Assembly: GCA_026418055.1 (NCBI GenBank)
Contig: JAOACB010000024.1
Location: forward strand, 1-36,585
Direction of reading: 5' to 3'
Source of the DNA: Fimbriimonadales bacterium
GTDB lineage: Bacteria; Armatimonadota; Fimbriimonadia; Fimbriimonadales; Fimbriimonadaceae
DNA length: 36,585 nucleotides
Shown here: in pieces, positions 18,175-27,125 of the stretch
How positions within the stretch are numbered: position 1 is the first letter of the stretch
Layout: each line of letters opens with the position of its first letter
The notes under the pieces: generated by a model
Databases searched by the model: none
Seen by the model: the letters and a program-made list of their open reading frames with translations, nothing else
What the model was told of the DNA's origin: nothing
Translations under genes and position numbers: made by a program

Positions 18175-19014
18175 TCAGGGCTGGATCGGTCGGCCCTGCT
18201 CGTCGTACAGCCGCAGGGTGCCGCGCGGCTCGGCGGGTCGGTCCGCGGCCGGGCGCCTGCGAGCGGGGCGGGCGGTTGGGCGGCGGGCTTCGGCGGGCCG
18301 GACCTCCAGGGGCCGCGGCTTCGCCGGGGCCTGGGCCCTGGGCCGAGCCGGCTGGCTGGCGGGCGCGGAGGCCTGCTCGGACGTCTGGGCGGGGGGCTCG
18401 ACCGGTTCCGGGGACGGGGCGGCGGCCGCGTCTGCCGAGGGGCTCTCCTGCGGGGGGGCCGCCAGCTCGTCACGGTCGATCGGCTCGTCCATCGACGGCA
18501 CGTAGATCGTGGGGAACGGCTGCTCGGGCTGTCTGGCGGCGACGCGCCCCTCGGGCCCCTGTTGAGCTCCCGACGCGGGCGACGCCTCGGCGGCGTCCGC
18601 GGCCTTGGCGCCGAACAGCGCGGTGGGATCCTTGGCCAGGAAGCTCATCGCCGCGAGCACGCCGGCGAGGGAGAGCGAGTAGACGAGCAGCTTCCAAGGG
18701 AAGGGCTGGGCCGCCGCGGGCGGGGTGGCGACGGCGGCCTTGCGGGGTGCTGCCTTCTGCTGGTTCGGACGAGCCGCGGCGGGTTGCGGTTCCGTGCGCT
18801 CCCTGCGGGAGGGCTCCGGGGCCCCAACGGCCGCGGATCCGTTCGCCAGCGCGTGCAGCTCGGCCTTGCGCCCCGCCAGCTCGGCGCGGCACTCCTGGCA
18901 TCGGCCGAGGTGCGCCTCCAGCTGGGCCATCATGTCCTTGGGAAGGATCTCTCCCTTGAGGAAGCGGCCGATTTGCAGCCTGGCGATCTGGCACTCCACG
19001 TTTTGAACCGGCAT
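18175..19014 (-). CDS. Zinc-finger (zf-HC2) anti-sigma-like membrane protein
   Basis: 279 aa from the ATG at 19014; an in-frame TTG at 19023 is an alternative. The N-terminus carries a ZAS/zf-HC2-type motif H35-x3-C39-x2-C42 with C8 upstream (EAHLGRCQECRAEL), as in anti-sigma factors. A membrane helix lies at about 107-127 (LLVYSLSLAGVLAAMSFLA), followed by a long Pro/Ala/Arg-rich extracytoplasmic region and a short C-terminal GTLRLYDEQGRP block. No sigma factor gene is adjacent in the window, which is unusual because most anti-sigma genes are cotranscribed with their sigma factor. The next gene encodes an exported STN protein. Confidence 0.72.
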   Translation of the reverse strand: MPVQNVECQIARLQIGRFLKGEILPKDMMAQLEAHLGRCQECRAELAGRKAELHALANGSAAVGAPEPSRRERTEPQPAAARPNQQKAAPRKAAVATPPAAAQPFPWKLLVYSLSLAGVLAAMSFLAKDPTALFGAKAADAAEASPASGAQQGPEGRVAARQPEQPFPTIYVPSMDEPIDRDELAAPPQESPSADAAAAPSPEPVEPPAQTSEQASAPASQPARPRAQAPAKPRPLEVRPAEARRPTARPARRRPAADRPAEPRGTLRLYDEQGRPIQP

Positions 19015-19063
19015 CTCTGTCAATCCACTTCAGGTTTGCGGGCGAGAAACGGATTCGACCCAG

Positions 19064-19069
19064 TAGGAT
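19064..19069 (+). promoter_or_regulatory. Candidate -10 box TAGGAT upstream of the GH2 gene
   Basis: TAGGAT lies 74 nt before the GH2 ATG at 19144. If used, the leader is long and contains the inverted repeat at 19085-19129 and the ribosome binding site GGGAGAG. No -35 box at standard spacing is visible. Confidence 0.3.
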
Positions 19070-19084
19070 TGTCGGGTGGAGCGG

Positions 19085-19129
19085 CGGTTTCCTCAGGGGG
19101 TTCCCGAGAAAAAACGCGCCGGGAAACCG
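19085..19129 (+). repeat. Inverted repeat in the GH2 leader
   Basis: CGGTTTCC (19085-19092) and GGAAACCG (19122-19129) are perfect 8-bp complements, 14 nt upstream of the GH2 start. The intervening 29 nt contain GGGGTTCCC, which offers an alternative pairing with the right arm. This could be an mRNA structure or a long-spaced operator. Confidence 0.4.
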
Positions 19130-19143
19130 TCTACGGGAGAGCG

Positions 19144-21387
19144 ATGTGGAGGGAGTTGCTGTGCATGGCGCTGATCGGCGGGGTGTCGGCCGTGTCCGCT
19201 GAGGCGCCGAGGCTGAAGACGCGCTGGGCCGAGAAGGTCGACCCTGCCGCGCCCCTGCCGGAGTATCCGCGGCCCACGCTGGTCCGCAAGGAGTGGCTGA
19301 ACCTCAACGGCCCTTGGCAGTTCGCGGTGAGCGACCGATCGGCCACGGCGCCGCCGACCTTCGGCAGGACGATCCTGGTGCCGTTCCCGGTGGAGAGCCA
19401 GCTCGGAGGGGTGGGGTTGACCCCGACCGAGAACCAGCGCGTTTGGTACCGGCGGACGGTGGCCGTGCCCGCGGCCTGGCGGGGCAGGCGAGTGCTGCTG
19501 CACTTCGGCGCCTCGGACTGGGAGACGCGCGTTTGGGTCAACGGCGAGTTGGTCGGGGAGCACCGCGGGGGCTACGACGGCTTCTCGTTCGACGTGACCG
19601 ACGCTCTGCGCCGCCGCGAGGGCGAGGCGGAGATCCTGGTGAGCGTGTGGGATCCCACCGACAGCGGGCCTCAGGCGCGGGGCAAGCAGGTGCGCAAGCC
19701 CGAGGGGATTTTCTACACTCCCGTCACCGGCATCTGGCAGACCGTGTGGATGGAGCCGGTTCCCGAGCGCTCGATCGGGGGCTACCGGGCGGTGCCGGAC
19801 GTCGACCGTTCCCGGCTCGAGCTGACGGTGTCCCTGCGCGGGCCCGGCGACGGACTGAGCGTGCGCGCCGAGGCGCTGGACGGGCGGCGGGTGGTGTCGC
19901 GCAGCGAGGCTCCCGCGGGGCAGACGATGCTGCTGCGGCTCGAGGCGCCGAAGCTGTGGTCGCCGGACAGGCCTTTCCTGTACGGCCTGCGCCTCACGCT
20001 GCTGCGCGGCGGCCAGACCCTGGACCGCACCGAGGGGTACTTCGGCATGCGCAAGGTGGAGGTCGGCAAGGGGCCCGACGGGAAGACGCGCATTCTGCTG
20101 AACGGCAAGCCGCTGTTCCTGTTCGGGTTCCTGGACCAGGGCTACTGGCCGGACGGCCTCTACACCGCGCCCACCGAGGAGGCGCTGCGCTTCGACATCG
20201 AGGCCACCAAGCGGCTCGGCATGAACCTGGCGCGCAAGCACGTGAAGGTTGAGCCCGAGCGCTGGTATTTCCTGTGCGACAAGCTGGGCCTGGCGGTGTA
20301 CCAAGACATGCCGTCGGGCTTCGGCGCGAGGCCCATGCCCCGCGAAGACCAGGAGCAGTTCGAGCGGGAGCTGCGCAGGATGGTCGAAGGCCGCTTCAAC
20401 CACCCTTCCATCCTGATGTGGGTGGTGTTCAACGAGGGCTGGGGCCAGTACGACACCGAGCGTCTGACCTCCTTCGCCAAGAGCCTCGACCCGTCGAGGC
20501 TGGTCAACAACGCCTCGGGCTGGACCGACCACGGCGTGGGGGACGTGGTGGACATCCACGTGTACCCAGGGCCGCAGTCGCCCCGGCCGGAAGCCGCCCG
20601 CGCCGCGGTGCTGGGCGAGTTCGGAGGCCTCGGCCTGCCCGTGCAGGGCCACCTGTGGCAGGACCGCGGCAACTGGGGCTACCAGTCGTTCCAAGACCGC
20701 GAAACGCTCACCGAGAGGGTCGTGGAGCTGCTCCGGCGCCTGCACCCGCTGATCGCCGAGCCCGGGCTGTCATCGGCCGTGTACACCCAGACCACCGACG
20801 TCGAGATCGAAGCCAACGGGTTCTACACCTACGACCGAGAGGTGCTGAAGGTGGACGGCGAGCGCGTGCGGCGCGCGATCTTGGCCCTGTACGGCCCACC
20901 GCCCAGCGTGCAGACCGTGGTTCCGGACTCGCAGGCCGAGGGCCTCGAGTGGCGCTACACCACCCTCGAGCCTCAAGGGAGCTGGACGGATCCCCGCTTC
21001 GACGACTCCGCGTGGAGCGTGGGCAAGGCGGGCTTTGGAACGGTCGGAACCCCCGGCGCCGCGGTGCGCACCGTGTGGAGCTCGCAGACCCTGTGGATCC
21101 GCCGCACGTTCGAGCTGCCGGAGACCGTGCGCTTCTCGCAGCCCGCGCTGCGCATCCACCACGACGAGGACTGCGAGGTGTTCCTGGACGGCAAGCCTCT
21201 GGCTAGCCTGCAGGGATACACCGTGGGCTACACGCTGGTTCGGCTCGAGCGCAGGCTGCTGCCGTCGTTGCGCAAGGGCCGCCACACGCTGGCGGTGAGG
21301 GTGCGCAACACCACCGGCGGACAGTACATCGATGTCGGGATCGTGGACCTGGTGCCCGCTCCCAAAGGAGGGAACGCCCAACGATGA
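19144..21387 (+). CDS. Secreted glycoside hydrolase family 2 enzyme
   Basis: 747 aa. A signal peptide begins MWRELLCMALIGG; an ATG at 19165 preceded by GGAGGGAG is a possible alternative but lacks the basic n-region. GH2 domains follow in order: jelly-roll sugar-binding (about 45-210, LNLNGPWQF, WYRRTVAVP, VWVNGELVGEHRGGYDGF), Ig-like (about 210-305) and TIM barrel (about 305-600). The acid/base is E431 in VVFNEGWGQYD and the nucleophile E492 in LGEFGG. A C-terminal carbohydrate-binding-like domain (about 615-735) contains WTDPRFDDSAW. It is a beta-galactosidase, beta-glucuronidase or related exo-enzyme; the exact sugar cannot be read. It overlaps the sugar-binding lipoprotein gene as ATGA. 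Confidence 0.93.
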   Translation: MWRELLCMALIGGVSAVSAEAPRLKTRWAEKVDPAAPLPEYPRPTLVRKEWLNLNGPWQFAVSDRSATAPPTFGRTILVPFPVESQLGGVGLTPTENQRVWYRRTVAVPAAWRGRRVLLHFGASDWETRVWVNGELVGEHRGGYDGFSFDVTDALRRREGEAEILVSVWDPTDSGPQARGKQVRKPEGIFYTPVTGIWQTVWMEPVPERSIGGYRAVPDVDRSRLELTVSLRGPGDGLSVRAEALDGRRVVSRSEAPAGQTMLLRLEAPKLWSPDRPFLYGLRLTLLRGGQTLDRTEGYFGMRKVEVGKGPDGKTRILLNGKPLFLFGFLDQGYWPDGLYTAPTEEALRFDIEATKRLGMNLARKHVKVEPERWYFLCDKLGLAVYQDMPSGFGARPMPREDQEQFERELRRMVEGRFNHPSILMWVVFNEGWGQYDTERLTSFAKSLDPSRLVNNASGWTDHGVGDVVDIHVYPGPQSPRPEAARAAVLGEFGGLGLPVQGHLWQDRGNWGYQSFQDRETLTERVVELLRRLHPLIAEPGLSSAVYTQTTDVEIEANGFYTYDREVLKVDGERVRRAILALYGPPPSVQTVVPDSQAEGLEWRYTTLEPQGSWTDPRFDDSAWSVGKAGFGTVGTPGAAVRTVWSSQTLWIRRTFELPETVRFSQPALRIHHDEDCEVFLDGKPLASLQGYTVGYTLVRLERRLLPSLRKGRHTLAVRVRNTTGGQYIDVGIVDLVPAPKGGNAQR

Positions 21388-22376
21388 GAACCTTTTGGTG
21401 GAACCTGGCGGCCGCGGCTCTGCTCGCGGCCGGTTGCGCGCAGAGGGCCGCGGACACTGCCGAGCCCCCGAGCGGCGGTGCGGCCGGCGGCGCGAAGCGT
21501 CTGACGGTGGGCTTCAGCCAGATCGGCGCCGAGAGCGGATGGCGGACCGCCGAGACCGAGTCGATTCGGGAGGAGGCGGCCAAGCGCGGCATCGAGCTGA
21601 AGTTCAGCGACGCCCAGCAGAAGCAGGAGAACCAGATCAAGGCTCTGCGCAGCTTCATCGCGCAGAAGGTCGACGCGATCCTGCTCGCGCCGGTCGTCGA
21701 GACCGGCTGGGACGCCGTCTTGCAAGAGGCCAAGGACGCGGGCATCCCCGTGGTGCTGGTCGACCGTGGGGTGAAGGTCCGTGACGACTCCCTGTACGCC
21801 ACGCTCATCGCGTCCGACTTCGTGGCGGAGGGCCGCATGGCGGGCGAGTGGCTGGCCGAGCGGACGAAGGACCGGCCCGAGCACGTGATCGGCATCGCCG
21901 AGCTTCAGGGCACCCCGGGGGCAGCTCCGGCCATCGACCGCAAGAGGGGCTTCGAGCAGGGCATCGCCAAGAACCCCAAGCTCAGGATCGTGCTCTCCCA
22001 GAGCGGCGACTTCACCCGCGCCAAGGGCAAGCAGGCCATGGAGGCGTTCCTCAAGTCCGGCCAGAAGTTCGGCGCGGTGTTCGCGCACAACGACGACATG
22101 GCGCTCGGGGCGATCCAGGCGATCGAGGAGGCAGGGCTCAAGCCCGGCAAGGACCTGCTGATCGTGTCCGTCGACGGCGTTCGGGACGCGCTGCAGGCGC
22201 TCATCGACGGCAAGCTCAACCTGTCCGTGGAGTGCAACCCGCTGCTCGGACCGCTGGCGTTCGACGCGGTGGAGGCCGCGGTCGCAGGCAAGCCGCTTCC
22301 CAAGTGGACCGTCGTGAAGGACCGCGCCTTCGACCGCGAGGCGGCGATGCGCGAGATCGCAGGCCGCAGGTACTGA
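21384..22376 (+). CDS. YtfQ-like sugar-binding lipoprotein of an ABC transporter
   Basis: 330 aa. The lipoprotein signal MRTFWWNLAAAALLAAGC has its Cys at 18. The mature part is a Peripla_BP_4-type binding protein very like E. coli YtfQ (galactofuranose uptake): APVVETGWDAVLQEAKDAGIPV, VDRGVKVRDDSLYATLIASD, ELQGTPGAAPAIDRKRGFEQ, SQSGDFTRAKGKQAMEAF and AHNDDMALGAIQAIEEAGLKPG all follow that protein. Its start overlaps the GH2 stop (ATGA, 21384-21387), so binding protein and enzyme are made together. No ABC permease or ATPase genes follow; the next gene is convergent. It must use a transporter encoded elsewhere or act in sensing. Confidence 0.92.
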   Translation: MRTFWWNLAAAALLAAGCAQRAADTAEPPSGGAAGGAKRLTVGFSQIGAESGWRTAETESIREEAAKRGIELKFSDAQQKQENQIKALRSFIAQKVDAILLAPVVETGWDAVLQEAKDAGIPVVLVDRGVKVRDDSLYATLIASDFVAEGRMAGEWLAERTKDRPEHVIGIAELQGTPGAAPAIDRKRGFEQGIAKNPKLRIVLSQSGDFTRAKGKQAMEAFLKSGQKFGAVFAHNDDMALGAIQAIEEAGLKPGKDLLIVSVDGVRDALQALIDGKLNLSVECNPLLGPLAFDAVEAAVAGKPLPKWTVVKDRAFDREAAMREIAGRRY

Positions 22377-23633: not shown

Positions 23634-25997
23634 TCAGGGCCGGATGCGCAGCACCGTCACGCTGTGCGCCGGAAGGCGCCGCTCGAAGCGCGGACCGTTG
23701 GCCCGGAACGGCGTCTTGTGCGGCACCACCTTCCTGGGCTCGTCCAGGGAGTTTTCGTCGGTCGGCTTCGCCGAGGTGAGCGTCTCGGCGGTGCCCGCCA
23801 AGGGCGCTTGCCTCCAGCCCCGCAAGTCGACGCTCAGGCGCACGGGCTCCAGGGCGCCGTTCACCAGCTTGAGGATCAGCTCGCCGGTCTTGAGGTCCTT
23901 GGTGGCCGAGGCGAACACGCGCGGAGCGTCCCGCACCTCGCCCTGCAGGACCAGCTCGCCGTCCAGGTAGCACCGGAAGGACGGCCCTCGGGTCTCCACG
24001 CGCACGTCGTACCAGCGGCCGGTCTCGATGGTTCCGCGCCGCTCCGCGACCACCCGCTTGCCGCCCATCTCGGCGTGCTCGACCGCGTGTCGGGTGTTGC
24101 CCCAGCCTCCGAGGTTCAGCCAGAGGTAGTCGTCGCGGCCTGTCACGCCGAACAGGATGAGGAAGCCCTCCGCGCCCGACAGCTTGCGGGCCTTGACGGA
24201 GAACACCACGTCCTCCCAGTCTCGGCGTCCCGCCACCGCGCGCACCCCCTCGCCGTTGCCCGTCTGTCGAAGGGCTCCGTTCAGGCTCCACGTTTGGCCG
24301 TCGCGCTGCAGGCTGGCGCCGCTCGGATCCTCGAACAGCGTCTCGCCGTTGCGGGTGACCTTCAGATCCTTGAACTCGGCCTGGGTCCTCCACGTGCCGA
24401 CGCCGACCCCGCCGCGGATCGGCTTGGTTTTGGACGGCGGCTGCTCCAGCCGCACCGGCAGCGATCGGTCGCCTCGGTTGTGCGCGAACAGCTTCTGCAC
24501 GTGGTAGGAGGGCGTGCCGTAGGCCCTCAGGCCGTCGAAGCAGATCAGGTCGGGGTTCCAACCCTTGTGGTTGACTTTGGCGAACAAAGGAGCGTAGCTG
24601 GCCATCGCCACCACGTCCGAGTTGCGCTCCATGCCGGTCATGAACGCCGCCTCGGCGACGGCCGCGATCAGATTGCCCTGTCCCGCGCCCTGCGTCACGG
24701 CGTATTCGCCCACGTACACGCGGGGCTCCCTTCGGTCGTAGCCGTCGTACCTCGAGGCCATGTCGAAGAACACGCCGGGGCTGCTGTAGTAGTGCTCGTC
24801 CAGGAAGTCGGCCCTTGGCTCGCGCGGGTATCCGCCCCACACGTTGGCGATGATCTCCACCTCGGGGTGCTTGGCCCGGATGGCCTCGACGAACAGCCGG
24901 TAGCGCTCTGCGTACAACGGACCCCCGTTCTCGTTGCCGATCTCGATGAGGCGCAGGCCGAACGGCTTGGGGTGGCCGTTCGCTGCCCGCAGCGCGCCCC
25001 ACTTCGAGTCGACCGGGCCGTTGGCGTACTCGAGCGCGTCGAGGGCGTCCTGCACGAACTCGGCCATGCGGTCCATCGGCACGTGGTCGCGGTGCGCCAT
25101 GCCCGCGTTGATCACGAACATCGGCTCGGCGCCCAGGTCCTCGGCGAGCTGGAGGTACTCGTGGAAACCGAGGCCGTTGGTCGACAGGTAGCCCCAAAGG
25201 TTGGGCTGGGTGCGGCGCTCGAACACGGGCCCGATGGTTTGCTTCCAGCGCTGGGCTGTGGCCATGGTGTCGCCCTCGACCCAGCAGCCGCCGGGGAAGC
25301 GCAGGAACGCCGGCTTGAGGTCGGCCAGCATCTGGGCGAGATCGGCGCGCAGGCCGTTCTCGCGGTTCTTGAACGTCTTCTGCGGGAACAGCGAAGCGTA
25401 GTCGACCTGCACCTGCCCGCCGCCGTCGGTTTGGAACTCGAGCACCAGCCGCGCCTTGCCGTCGGTGGCCTTGGCGCGCAGGGTGGCCTTGCGCTCGGCC
25501 CACTCCGCTCCAACGTCGCCCAGGCTCGCGTTGGCCAGCTCGCCGCCCTTGGAGTCCACCAGTCGGGCGGTCGCCTTCGCGGCTCCCCTCAGCGAGCGCG
25601 CCTTGACGGCGAGGTCGTAGGCCCAGCCGGACCTCACGGCCACTCCCCAGTAGCCCTCGTTGGCCACGGCACCCTTGGCCTCGAAGCGCAGTTCGAGCGC
25701 CCTGCGGTTGAACTGGGTGGCGGGCTCCAAGGGCACCACCCGGGCATCGGTCCCGGCGATCGGCGCCCAGTGGTTGGGTCGGTCGGCGTCCTCGAAGGAT
25801 CGGTTGCGCAGCAGCTCGGCGTACAGGCCGCCGTCCCCGGCGCAGTTGATCTCCTCGAAGAAGATGCCGTACAGGCGGGGGTCGACGGGCTTGCCGCGGT
25901 GGTCGGTCTCGACGGCCAGGGACGCCGTCAGGATCTCGGGGCGTTGGGCTTCCAGAGCTGGGTTCAGCATCGCGCAGATCGCCAGGGCGGAAATCAT
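23634..25997 (-). CDS. Secreted GH51 alpha-L-arabinofuranosidase
   Basis: 787 aa with an N-terminal signal peptide ([18 protein letters not shown]). It should release arabinose from arabinan or arabinoxylan outside the cytoplasm. A carbohydrate-binding-like insert (about 70-205) precedes the TIM barrel. [23 protein letters not shown], the acid/base E356 in EIGNENGG and the nucleophile E431 in YVGEYAV are visible. After the barrel and a beta domain, residues of about 550-780 include a concanavalin-like block ([37 protein letters not shown]). The start has a perfect AAGGAGG ribosome binding site and an extended -10 promoter. It is divergent from an ArsR-type regulator that probably controls it. 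Confidence 0.93.
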
Positions 25998-26015
25998 CCG
26001 GTCCTCCTTGGGTGC

Positions 26016-26024
26016 ATTCTAGCA
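26016..26024 (-). promoter_or_regulatory. Extended -10 promoter element of the GH51 gene
   Basis: TGCTAGAAT on the minus strand combines the extended TGN element with TAGAAT. It lies 18 nt upstream of the ATG at 25997, with AAGGAGG in between. This is a conventional led promoter, in contrast to the opposite regulator gene. Confidence 0.55.
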
Positions 26025-26051
26025 CAGTTATGACCATCGTCTTCCCTGCAT

Positions 26052-26069
26052 GAACCCCTCGGCGGGTTC
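26052..26069. promoter_or_regulatory. Candidate operator: inverted repeat GAACCC-N6-GGGTTC
   Basis: Perfect 6-bp arms with a 6-bp spacer lie in the 90-bp divergent gap between the GH51 gene and the ArsR-type regulator gene. The repeat covers the expected -35 region of the regulator's own promoter, whose -10 TACGAT starts 7 bp away. Its position and dyad symmetry fit an autoregulatory site for the adjacent winged-helix protein. Binding is inference. Confidence 0.5.
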
Positions 26070-26075
26070 GGCGGG

Positions 26076-26081
26076 TACGAT
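26076..26081 (+). promoter_or_regulatory. -10 box TACGAT of the ArsR-type regulator, leaderless
   Basis: TACGAT ends 6 nt before the GTG start at 26088. There is no ribosome binding site. The overlapping ATG at 26080 is followed by a stop after three codons, so it is not the start. Confidence 0.5.
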
Positions 26082-26087
26082 GCGGAC

Positions 26088-27038
26088 GTGAGGTCGTCGC
26101 ACATTTTGGAGCTGGGGGGAGTTCACAGCGTCGGGGTGTTCAAGGCCCTGGCCTCGGAGGCCAGAGTGCGGATTTTGGCGTTGCTGGCCGAGAAGGAGCG
26201 GAACATCAACGAGCTGAGCGAGCTGCTGCAGCTGAGCCAGCCGAGCGTGACCAAGCACATCCAGACGCTGGAGGAGGCGGGCTTGGTCGAGGGCCGGTAC
26301 GTGGGGGGCGTGCAGGGCACGCAGAAGGTGTGCCGCCTGGTGTACGACCGATTCATCGTGGGCTTCGAGGCGGAGGATCCGAGCGAGGACAACGTCGCCG
26401 AGGTCAGCATGCCGGTGGGTCTGTACAGCCTGGCGGAGGTGAAGCCCACGTGCGGGCTGGCCACGGTGCGCGGGCTCATCGGCTACCTGGACGATCCGGT
26501 GTCGTTCCACTTTCCCGAGCGCTCCCAGGCGGAGGTGCTCTGGACGTCCGCGGGTTTCGTCGAGTACACGTTCCCGAACACGATCCCAACCTCGGCGCGC
26601 ATCGACCGGCTGGACTTCGCCATGGAGGTCTGCTCCGAGACGCCGGGTTACAACAACGAGTTCCCGTCCGACATCACCGTGTGGGTGAACGGGGTGGACG
26701 TGGGCACGTGGCGCTCGCCCGGAGACATGGGAGGCCGCCGCGGCAGGCTGAACCCGCCGTGGTGGGGCGACAACATGAACCAGTACGGCTTCCTGAAGGT
26801 CTGGACCGTCGACGCCAAGGGATCGTTCATCGACGGCATGCGGGCGGGCGACGCCACCATCGGCGACCTGGGGGTGGAGCCGTGGAAGCCGACCGTGGTG
26901 CGCATCGGCGTCAAGCCCGACGCGGAGAACCAGGGCGGCTTCACGCTGTTCGGCAAGGGCTTCGGCAACTACGAGCAGGACCTGGTGCTGCGCCTGCACC
27001 ACACCGGAAGGCCCAAACAGCCCAAGAGGACGGAGTAG
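26088..27038 (+). CDS. ArsR-type winged-helix regulator with large beta-rich C-terminal domain
   Basis: 316 aa from a GTG at 26088. Residues of about 15-85 are an ArsR winged helix (FKALASEARVRILALLAEKERNINELSELLQLSQPSVTKHIQTLEEAGLV), without metal-binding Cys of the metal sensors. The remaining 220 residues are beta-rich (about 105-305): VEYTFPNTIP, RIDRLDFAMEVCSETPGYNN, ITVWVNGVDVGTW, NPPWWGDNMNQYGFLKVW and TVVRIGVKPDAENQGGFTLFGKGFGNY. This looks like a jelly-roll that could bind a sugar. I recall similar long ArsR proteins beside arabinofuranosidase genes in Firmicutes. It diverges from GH51, with a dyad between. A one-component sugar sensor is inference. Its stop lies 1 nt from the convergent tRNA gene. 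Confidence 0.85.
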   Translation: MRSSHILELGGVHSVGVFKALASEARVRILALLAEKERNINELSELLQLSQPSVTKHIQTLEEAGLVEGRYVGGVQGTQKVCRLVYDRFIVGFEAEDPSEDNVAEVSMPVGLYSLAEVKPTCGLATVRGLIGYLDDPVSFHFPERSQAEVLWTSAGFVEYTFPNTIPTSARIDRLDFAMEVCSETPGYNNEFPSDITVWVNGVDVGTWRSPGDMGGRRGRLNPPWWGDNMNQYGFLKVWTVDAKGSFIDGMRAGDATIGDLGVEPWKPTVVRIGVKPDAENQGGFTLFGKGFGNYEQDLVLRLHHTGRPKQPKRTE

Positions 27039-27039
27039 C

Positions 27040-27125
27040 TGGTGCGCGGGAAAGGACTCGAACCTTCACGCCTTGTGGGCACTACCACCTCAAGGTAGCG
27101 TGTCTACCAATTCCACCACCCGCGC
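27040..27125 (-). tRNA. tRNA-Leu (anticodon GAG)
   Basis: 86 nt including an encoded CCA. The acceptor stem pairs GCGCGGG with CCCGCGC and the discriminator is A. The D arm contains TTGGTAGAC. The anticodon stem CTACC/GGTAG holds the loop TTGAGGT, giving GAG for CUC/CUU Leu codons. A long variable arm (about 14 nt, GCC...GGC stem) makes it class II as expected for Leu. TTCGAGT is the T loop. The gene ends 1 nt from the stop of the convergent regulator. Confidence 0.96.

Follow-up and report, generated by a model that had tools for sequence, protein, structure and literature searches.

The window, by which we mean the whole stretch of 36,585 nucleotides that was analysed, carries a regulator gene lying divergent from an arabinofuranosidase gene, as the earlier note had reported, with a gap of 90 bp between the two. 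The regulator sits on contig C51 of a draft genome of Fimbriimonadaceae (Armatimonadota) and is encoded in one open reading frame with a GTG start; position 26016, from which the earlier note had counted it, is intergenic. The features of the locus and the evidence for each are as follows.

18562-21387, plus strand: GH2 glycosidase, 941 aa (PDB matches)
21384-22376, plus strand: sugar-binding protein (Peripla_BP_4), 330 aa; its gene overlaps the stop codon of the GH2 gene
23634-25997, minus strand: GH51 alpha-L-arabinofuranosidase, 787 aa, divergent neighbour of the regulator (Pfam and PDB match)
25998-26087, no strand: divergent control region, 90 bp (sequence; footprint in three genomes)
26016-26024, minus strand: conserved TGCTAGAAT in extended -10 form, putative promoter element of the GH51 gene (footprint)
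26052-26069, no strand: GAACCC-N6-GGGTTC dyad (from the earlier note; not supported as operator)
26076-26081, plus strand: putative -10 element of the regulator, TACGAT here and TAGCAT in relatives (sequence and three-genome footprint)
26088-27038, plus strand: regulator gene, 316 aa
26121-26363, plus strand: winged helix-turn-helix, aa 12-92 (HTH_5 and CzrA structure match)
26391-27008, plus strand: predicted C-terminal ligand domain, aa 102-307 (AlphaFold model and homology to GH2 C-domains)
26712-26798, plus strand: signature stretch, aa 209-237, RSPGDMGGRRGRLNPPWWGDNMNQYGFLK (44 homologs compared; 9 of 29 columns conserved at 95% or above)

A tRNA-Leu gene (anticodon GAG, 27040-27125, minus strand) begins 2 bases past the stop codon of the regulator on the opposite strand.

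The likely target of the regulator is the divergent GH51 gene. Its product contains the domains PF22848 (E 1e-47) and PF06964 (E 1.5e-34), and its best PDB match is MgGH51 (6zps, E 7.6e-95); the label of a secreted enzyme that it had been given is putative and comes from its hydrophobic N-terminus, the sole basis for it. The GH2 enzyme, whose catalytic part matches 7sf2 (E 2.5e-178) and the beta-D-galactofuranosidase 9j6n (E 1e-161) in the PDB, is a possible second target, and its gene likely forms one operon with that of the binding protein. The same gene order of GH2, binding protein and regulator is also found in locus L077. Binding proteins of this one sequence cluster recur near the regulator in the window and in two other loci (L074 8895-9953 and L077 6661-7728), and in two of these loci the gene directly follows a GH2 gene.

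The regulator is built from two domains. The first is an ArsR-type winged helix, in agreement with the earlier reading: HTH_5 is matched with an E-value of 1.4e-12 (Pfam), the domain scores 59.9 bits (cut-off 55) for NF033788, the 'metalloregulator ArsR/SmtB family' of NCBIfam, and structure comparison with CzrA (4ggg) gave a Z of 12.9 and an rmsd of 2.0 over 77 residues. The fold is therefore that of the ArsR/SmtB metalloregulators. The family as a whole is presumably COG4189. A DNA-binding head of this type is typical of metal sensors, and the metal-site cysteines of known ArsR proteins lie as CxC in the region of the recognition helix. The recognition region of the regulator, NINELSELLQLSQPSVTKHIQ, has no Cys, and the three that the protein has in total (C82, C122 and C182) are all found outside it, which bears out the statement in the earlier note that metal-sensor Cys sites are lacking.

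The second domain, about 210 residues long where some 220 beta-rich residues had been estimated, is all-beta in the AlphaFold model. The whole regulator was predicted with a pLDDT of 84.8 from an alignment of 16 homologs, and the C-terminal domain alone (AF2) gave a confident jelly roll (pLDDT 86, pTM 0.87) of the type seen in CBM6/35/36-like modules. Its best PDB structure match is the CBM6 2cdp (with neoagarohexaose; Z 10.3, rmsd 2.7 over 122 residues), and the CBM of the cycloisomaltooligosaccharide glucanotransferase 3wnk (Z 10.1), the CBM36 1w0n (Z 9.9) and the CBM35 2w1w (Z 9.8) score almost as high. The best 19 PDB structure matches, with an rmsd of 2.6-3.5 A over 116-129 residues, are all sugar-binding modules or enzymes bearing them; the CBM6/35/36-type matches have Z scores of 9-10.3 and an rmsd of 2.6-3.1 over 116-124 residues, with only about 122 of the 211 residues of the domain aligning. 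Domain III of a Cry toxin is matched as well (Z 9.4), and since the CBM-like jelly roll is such a common fold, the fold alone is no proof of sugar binding. By sequence the domain matches no family in Pfam or NCBIfam and no PDB entry, none of 16 family members has a Pfam CBM match at E up to 1, and membership in a described CBM family is not seen at this level.

Judged from the sequence comparisons, homology to GH2 enzymes is stronger evidence for the link of this domain to sugars than its fold. A profile of the domain matches the C-termini of proteins of 840-1117 aa from other Armatimonadota families (six sampled genomes) with E-values of 8e-14 to 1e-8; these proteins are GH2 glycosidases by their Pfam domains, and direct BLASTP of the regulator against one of the C-termini gave 29% identity over 170 residues (E 2e-13). 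The motifs PS-x-I-x-V-x-x-NG, RG-x-L, YG-x-L and GG-x-x-L-F-G are common to both, so the presumed sensor domain is one that polysaccharide-degrading enzymes also have. The earlier note had named a fold unrelated to sugar binding as the result that would speak against its idea; the CBM6/35/36-like fold and the homology to GH2 C-termini are the opposite of this. One of the GH2 proteins (L166 2-2521, plus strand) has two copies of the domain, with profile matches at aa 389-446 and 551-657.

Across 44 homologs, 34 of the 206 columns of the C-terminal domain are conserved at 95% or more, compared with 6 of 81 in the DNA-binding domain, and the signature stretch is the best conserved part of the regulator. 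Identity in relatives from other phyla is 45% for the C-terminal domain and 37% for the winged helix. Better conservation of the ligand domain than of the DNA-binding domain would be expected if the effector is common to the family and the operators have diverged. The residue C122 (26451-26453) lies in a PTCGLA motif at the start of the C-terminal domain. The closest named relatives, two MAGs of the same genus ('uncultured Fimbriimonadaceae' and 'Armatimonadetes'), have regulators that are 92% and 91% identical.

Homologs were taken from genome contigs, 201 Armatimonadota genomes and plasmid records. At least one is present in 28 of the 201 genomes and they occur in 259 plasmid records, which together spread over four phyla-level groups: Armatimonadota, Alphaproteobacteria, Deinococcota and Bacillota. 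Nine alphaproteobacterial plasmid records have annotated alpha-N-arabinofuranosidase and sugar ABC transporter genes adjoining the homolog, those of Deinococcus and Priestia have GH2 neighbours (joined in some by GH43 and ABC genes), and the clusters in Fimbriimonadaceae contain araA/araB/araD, GH51 and ABC genes. For a test of these neighbourhoods, homologs were grouped at 80% identity, at least 3 kb had to be present on either side, and genes within 7 kb were counted; the 40 control windows were drawn at random from the same Armatimonadota genomes and thus represent that phylum only. Calls in GC-rich loci (L067) were checked by translation and wrong-frame ORFs were left out.

A GH51, GH43, GH2 or ara gene was found near 36/43 groups and in 3/40 control windows (p 4e-13). 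For GH2, GH43 and ara this comparison has some circularity, their query proteins having come from the neighbours themselves. The test for GH51 alone had been set beforehand by the earlier note and gave 21/43 groups and 1/40 control windows (p 6e-7), or 8/23 groups against 1/40 (p 9e-4; groups counted by hand) when limited to Armatimonadota. The random gene neighbours that would have weakened the idea were thus not what we saw. At the level of whole genomes, and ignoring kinship, ASD1-type GH51 is present in 23/28 genomes with the regulator and in 58/173 others (p 1.4e-6). The source genome has four family members, and two of its three GH51 genes adjoin one. Not every member need sense arabinose, given that 7/43 groups lack all four of these kinds of gene in their surroundings. 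Among the seven are the paralog on contig C58 of the same genome, near which no sugar gene was found, and copies near M16 peptidases or a phosphoesterase; some copies adjoin lipases. Proteins with BNR repeats (L013 312-3170, L066 9853-10929) lie beside distant members and beside one paralog in the source genome. The GH93 exo-arabinanases have a BNR-type fold, and these neighbours might extend the link to arabinan. In Armatimonadota a pseudopilin gene often adjoins the regulator (14/43 groups), and as one is also present in 8/40 control windows we draw nothing from it. Apparently broken regulator copies, with frame-split pieces of the C-terminal domain, were seen in L161 and L093 8047-8989 (G191:C76 and one copy of G080:C3).

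In the control region, TGCTAGAAT lies within 12 bases, ATTCTAGCACAG, that are invariant in the three genomes and make up the putative -10/RBS block of GH51. A sigma-70 scan of the GH51 promoter gave no full promoter and no good -35. The putative -10 of the regulator stands about 7 bases before the GTG, a distance that the two orthologs of the same genus preserve, and the transcript of this gene may accordingly be leaderless. What both orthologs keep is the GH51 block, a TGCAT and a GGTAnnAT box before the GTG. No palindrome common to the family was seen upstream of its members, and the upstream footprints gave clade-specific elements only. In nine genomes (L068-L072, L075, L093, L003 and L006) the first regulator copy has upstream a TTGCAT-N17-TATAAT promoter overlapped by direct repeats of TAATMATAG. 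In one paralog clade, an imperfect palindrome ATTTCC-N6-GGAAAT directly follows the near-consensus promoter (TTGACA-N17-TATAAT) of the second regulator copy (L006 9197-9214, L003 6298-6315, and the second copies of L070 and L093). It is found at the regulators themselves only, no other gene of those loci having one, and it is a candidate operator of this paralog.

Taken together, these results describe a real and widespread two-domain family for which sugar sensing appears well supported, as far as sequence and model can tell, by the CBM-like fold, the GH2 homology and the gene neighbours. Our reading, to which we give a probability of about 0.72, is that the regulator is a one-component, sugar-responsive transcription factor whose CBM-like domain binds an arabinofuranosyl sugar and which controls GH51. 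The winged helix presumably dimerises and would bind DNA in the 90-bp gap common with GH51. The C-terminal jelly roll would bind a sugar released from plant polysaccharide and then taken up, most likely an alpha-L-arabinofuranosyl oligosaccharide or L-arabinose; we infer a ligand of this kind from the arabinose-releasing enzymes that adjoin relatives across four phyla. Binding of the sugar would alter the affinity for DNA and switch on GH51 together with the regulator's own gene, and perhaps also the nearby GH2 and binding-protein genes. The likelier sign is repression relieved by sugar, which is suggested by the habit of the ArsR family, the predicted positions of the ArbR sites discussed below and the place of the paralog-clade palindrome after the -10.

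Other readings of the same data must be weighed against this. A conventional ArsR regulator that responds to metals or redox state, in which the C-terminal domain is merely structural, would fit the NCBI family score above cut-off and the retention of C122 in 43/44 and C82 in 37/44 homologs. We consider it very improbable, since the protein lacks the customary metal-site cysteines, the C-terminal domain is better conserved than the one that binds DNA, and the neighbours of the regulator and of its homologs are sugar genes and not genes for metal resistance or transport. It is unlikely, though less far-fetched, that the same protein responds to another sugar, such as galactofuranosides or xylo- or glucurono-oligosaccharides, with the arabinofuranosidase neighbours reflecting hemicellulose use in general. 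The nearby and the domain-bearing GH2 enzymes are indeed closest to beta-D-galactofuranosidase and beta-glucuronidase structures, and in some groups the only such neighbours are BNR proteins or enzymes of GH2, GH43, GH39, GH9 or GH3. However, the commonest enzyme neighbour is GH51, and several of the Fimbriimonadaceae clusters contain genes of ara catabolism along with it, which argues for the arabinose type.

The choice of operator and the sign of control can be examined in the same way. The earlier note had placed a perfect dyad over the -35 of the regulator as the operator of an arabinose sensor. The dyad is exact, no second perfect copy occurs in the window and its position is plausible, the overlap with a -35 being conditional on TACGAT as the -10. 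However, dinucleotide shuffling of the 90-bp gap produced a perfect gapped dyad of 6 bp (spacer 0-16) in 24% of cases, 40% of 90-bp tiles from the window contain one as well, and GAACCC-N6-GGGTTC is absent from both same-genus orthologs despite their keeping the regulator, the divergent GH51 and both promoter regions. A sequence at chance level that is not conserved should be dropped as the proposed operator, and we have rejected it as such; that it nevertheless serves this function is improbable. Thus the sensor part of the earlier idea stands and its operator does not. An activator, with the sugar-bound regulator recruiting RNA polymerase to the GH51 promoter, is unlikely, and the lack of a good -35 there would fit a need for activation. 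Against it, most ArsR-type regulators are repressors, and the candidate operator of the paralog clade directly follows its promoter. The ArbR of Caldicellulosiruptor bescii was also placed among the repressors from the positions of its sites (PMC8579813).

If an arabinofuranoside-responsive regulator is the correct reading, several hundred regulators annotated only as 'ArsR family' or 'helix-turn-helix', the plasmid records alone accounting for 259, would gain a likely effector class, and readings of such annotations as metal resistance would be wrong in rhizobia, Deinococcus, Paenibacillus and Armatimonadota. It would offer a case, open to experiment, in which a sugar-binding module of the enzyme type is used as the sensor of a transcription factor, and possibly an arabinose-responsive switch outside the AraC and GntR-type AraR families. 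We lean, by a little over even odds, to the wider claim of a large and as yet uncharacterised one-component class in at least four phyla, in which a carbohydrate-binding module common with GH2 glycosidases and outside every Pfam family acts on an ArsR winged helix as the intracellular sensor of sugars, with arabinofuranosides as the common ligand.

Comparison with known systems helps to place the regulator. With the ArsR/SmtB metalloregulators CzrA, SmtB and CadC it has the winged-helix DNA-binding domain in common, but it is three times longer, carries the CBM-like C-terminal domain and lacks metal-site cysteines of the known types. With CBM6, CBM35 and CBM36 the predicted domain has the jelly-roll fold in common (Z 9-10), but it has no sequence-family match to them, contains the conserved insertion SPGDxGGxRGxLNPxWWxDxxxQYG, and is intracellular and fused to an HTH. 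The Armatimonadota GH2 C-domain (L162/L170, L163/L171 and L164-L169) is homologous and has the motifs in common, but in those enzymes it comes after the catalytic domain of GH2, contains an insertion of 17 residues and is without the NPxWW stretch.

Our search of the open-access literature found no published ArsR winged helix with a carbohydrate-binding module. Regulators annotated as ArsR are simply listed in arabinose or arabinan clusters of Geobacillus 56T3 (PMC4428132) and L. rossiae (araRS, PMC4855831); they resemble the window regulator in annotation and gene context and are likened to it by description only. The closest system is ArbA/ArbR of C. bescii, proposed in 2021 as a novel ArsR-family regulator divergent from abfA with three predicted sites, predicted to be a repressor and called there the first ArsR-family regulator in carbohydrate use (PMC8579813). 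The earlier note was therefore nearly right to remark that few descriptions exist of sugar sensing by ArsR folds, and the functional idea was partly anticipated. ArbA/ArbR, a possible relative, and the window regulator, compared by description, are both of the ArsR family and both divergent from an arabinofuranosidase gene, whereas the three predicted sites of the former contrast with none found, and no conserved palindrome, for the latter. The text consulted (PMC8579813) does not mention a sugar-binding domain, a GH2 link or other phyla, and it is the CBM-like fold, the homology to the GH2 C-domain and the phylum-wide association with arabinofuranosidases that are new here.
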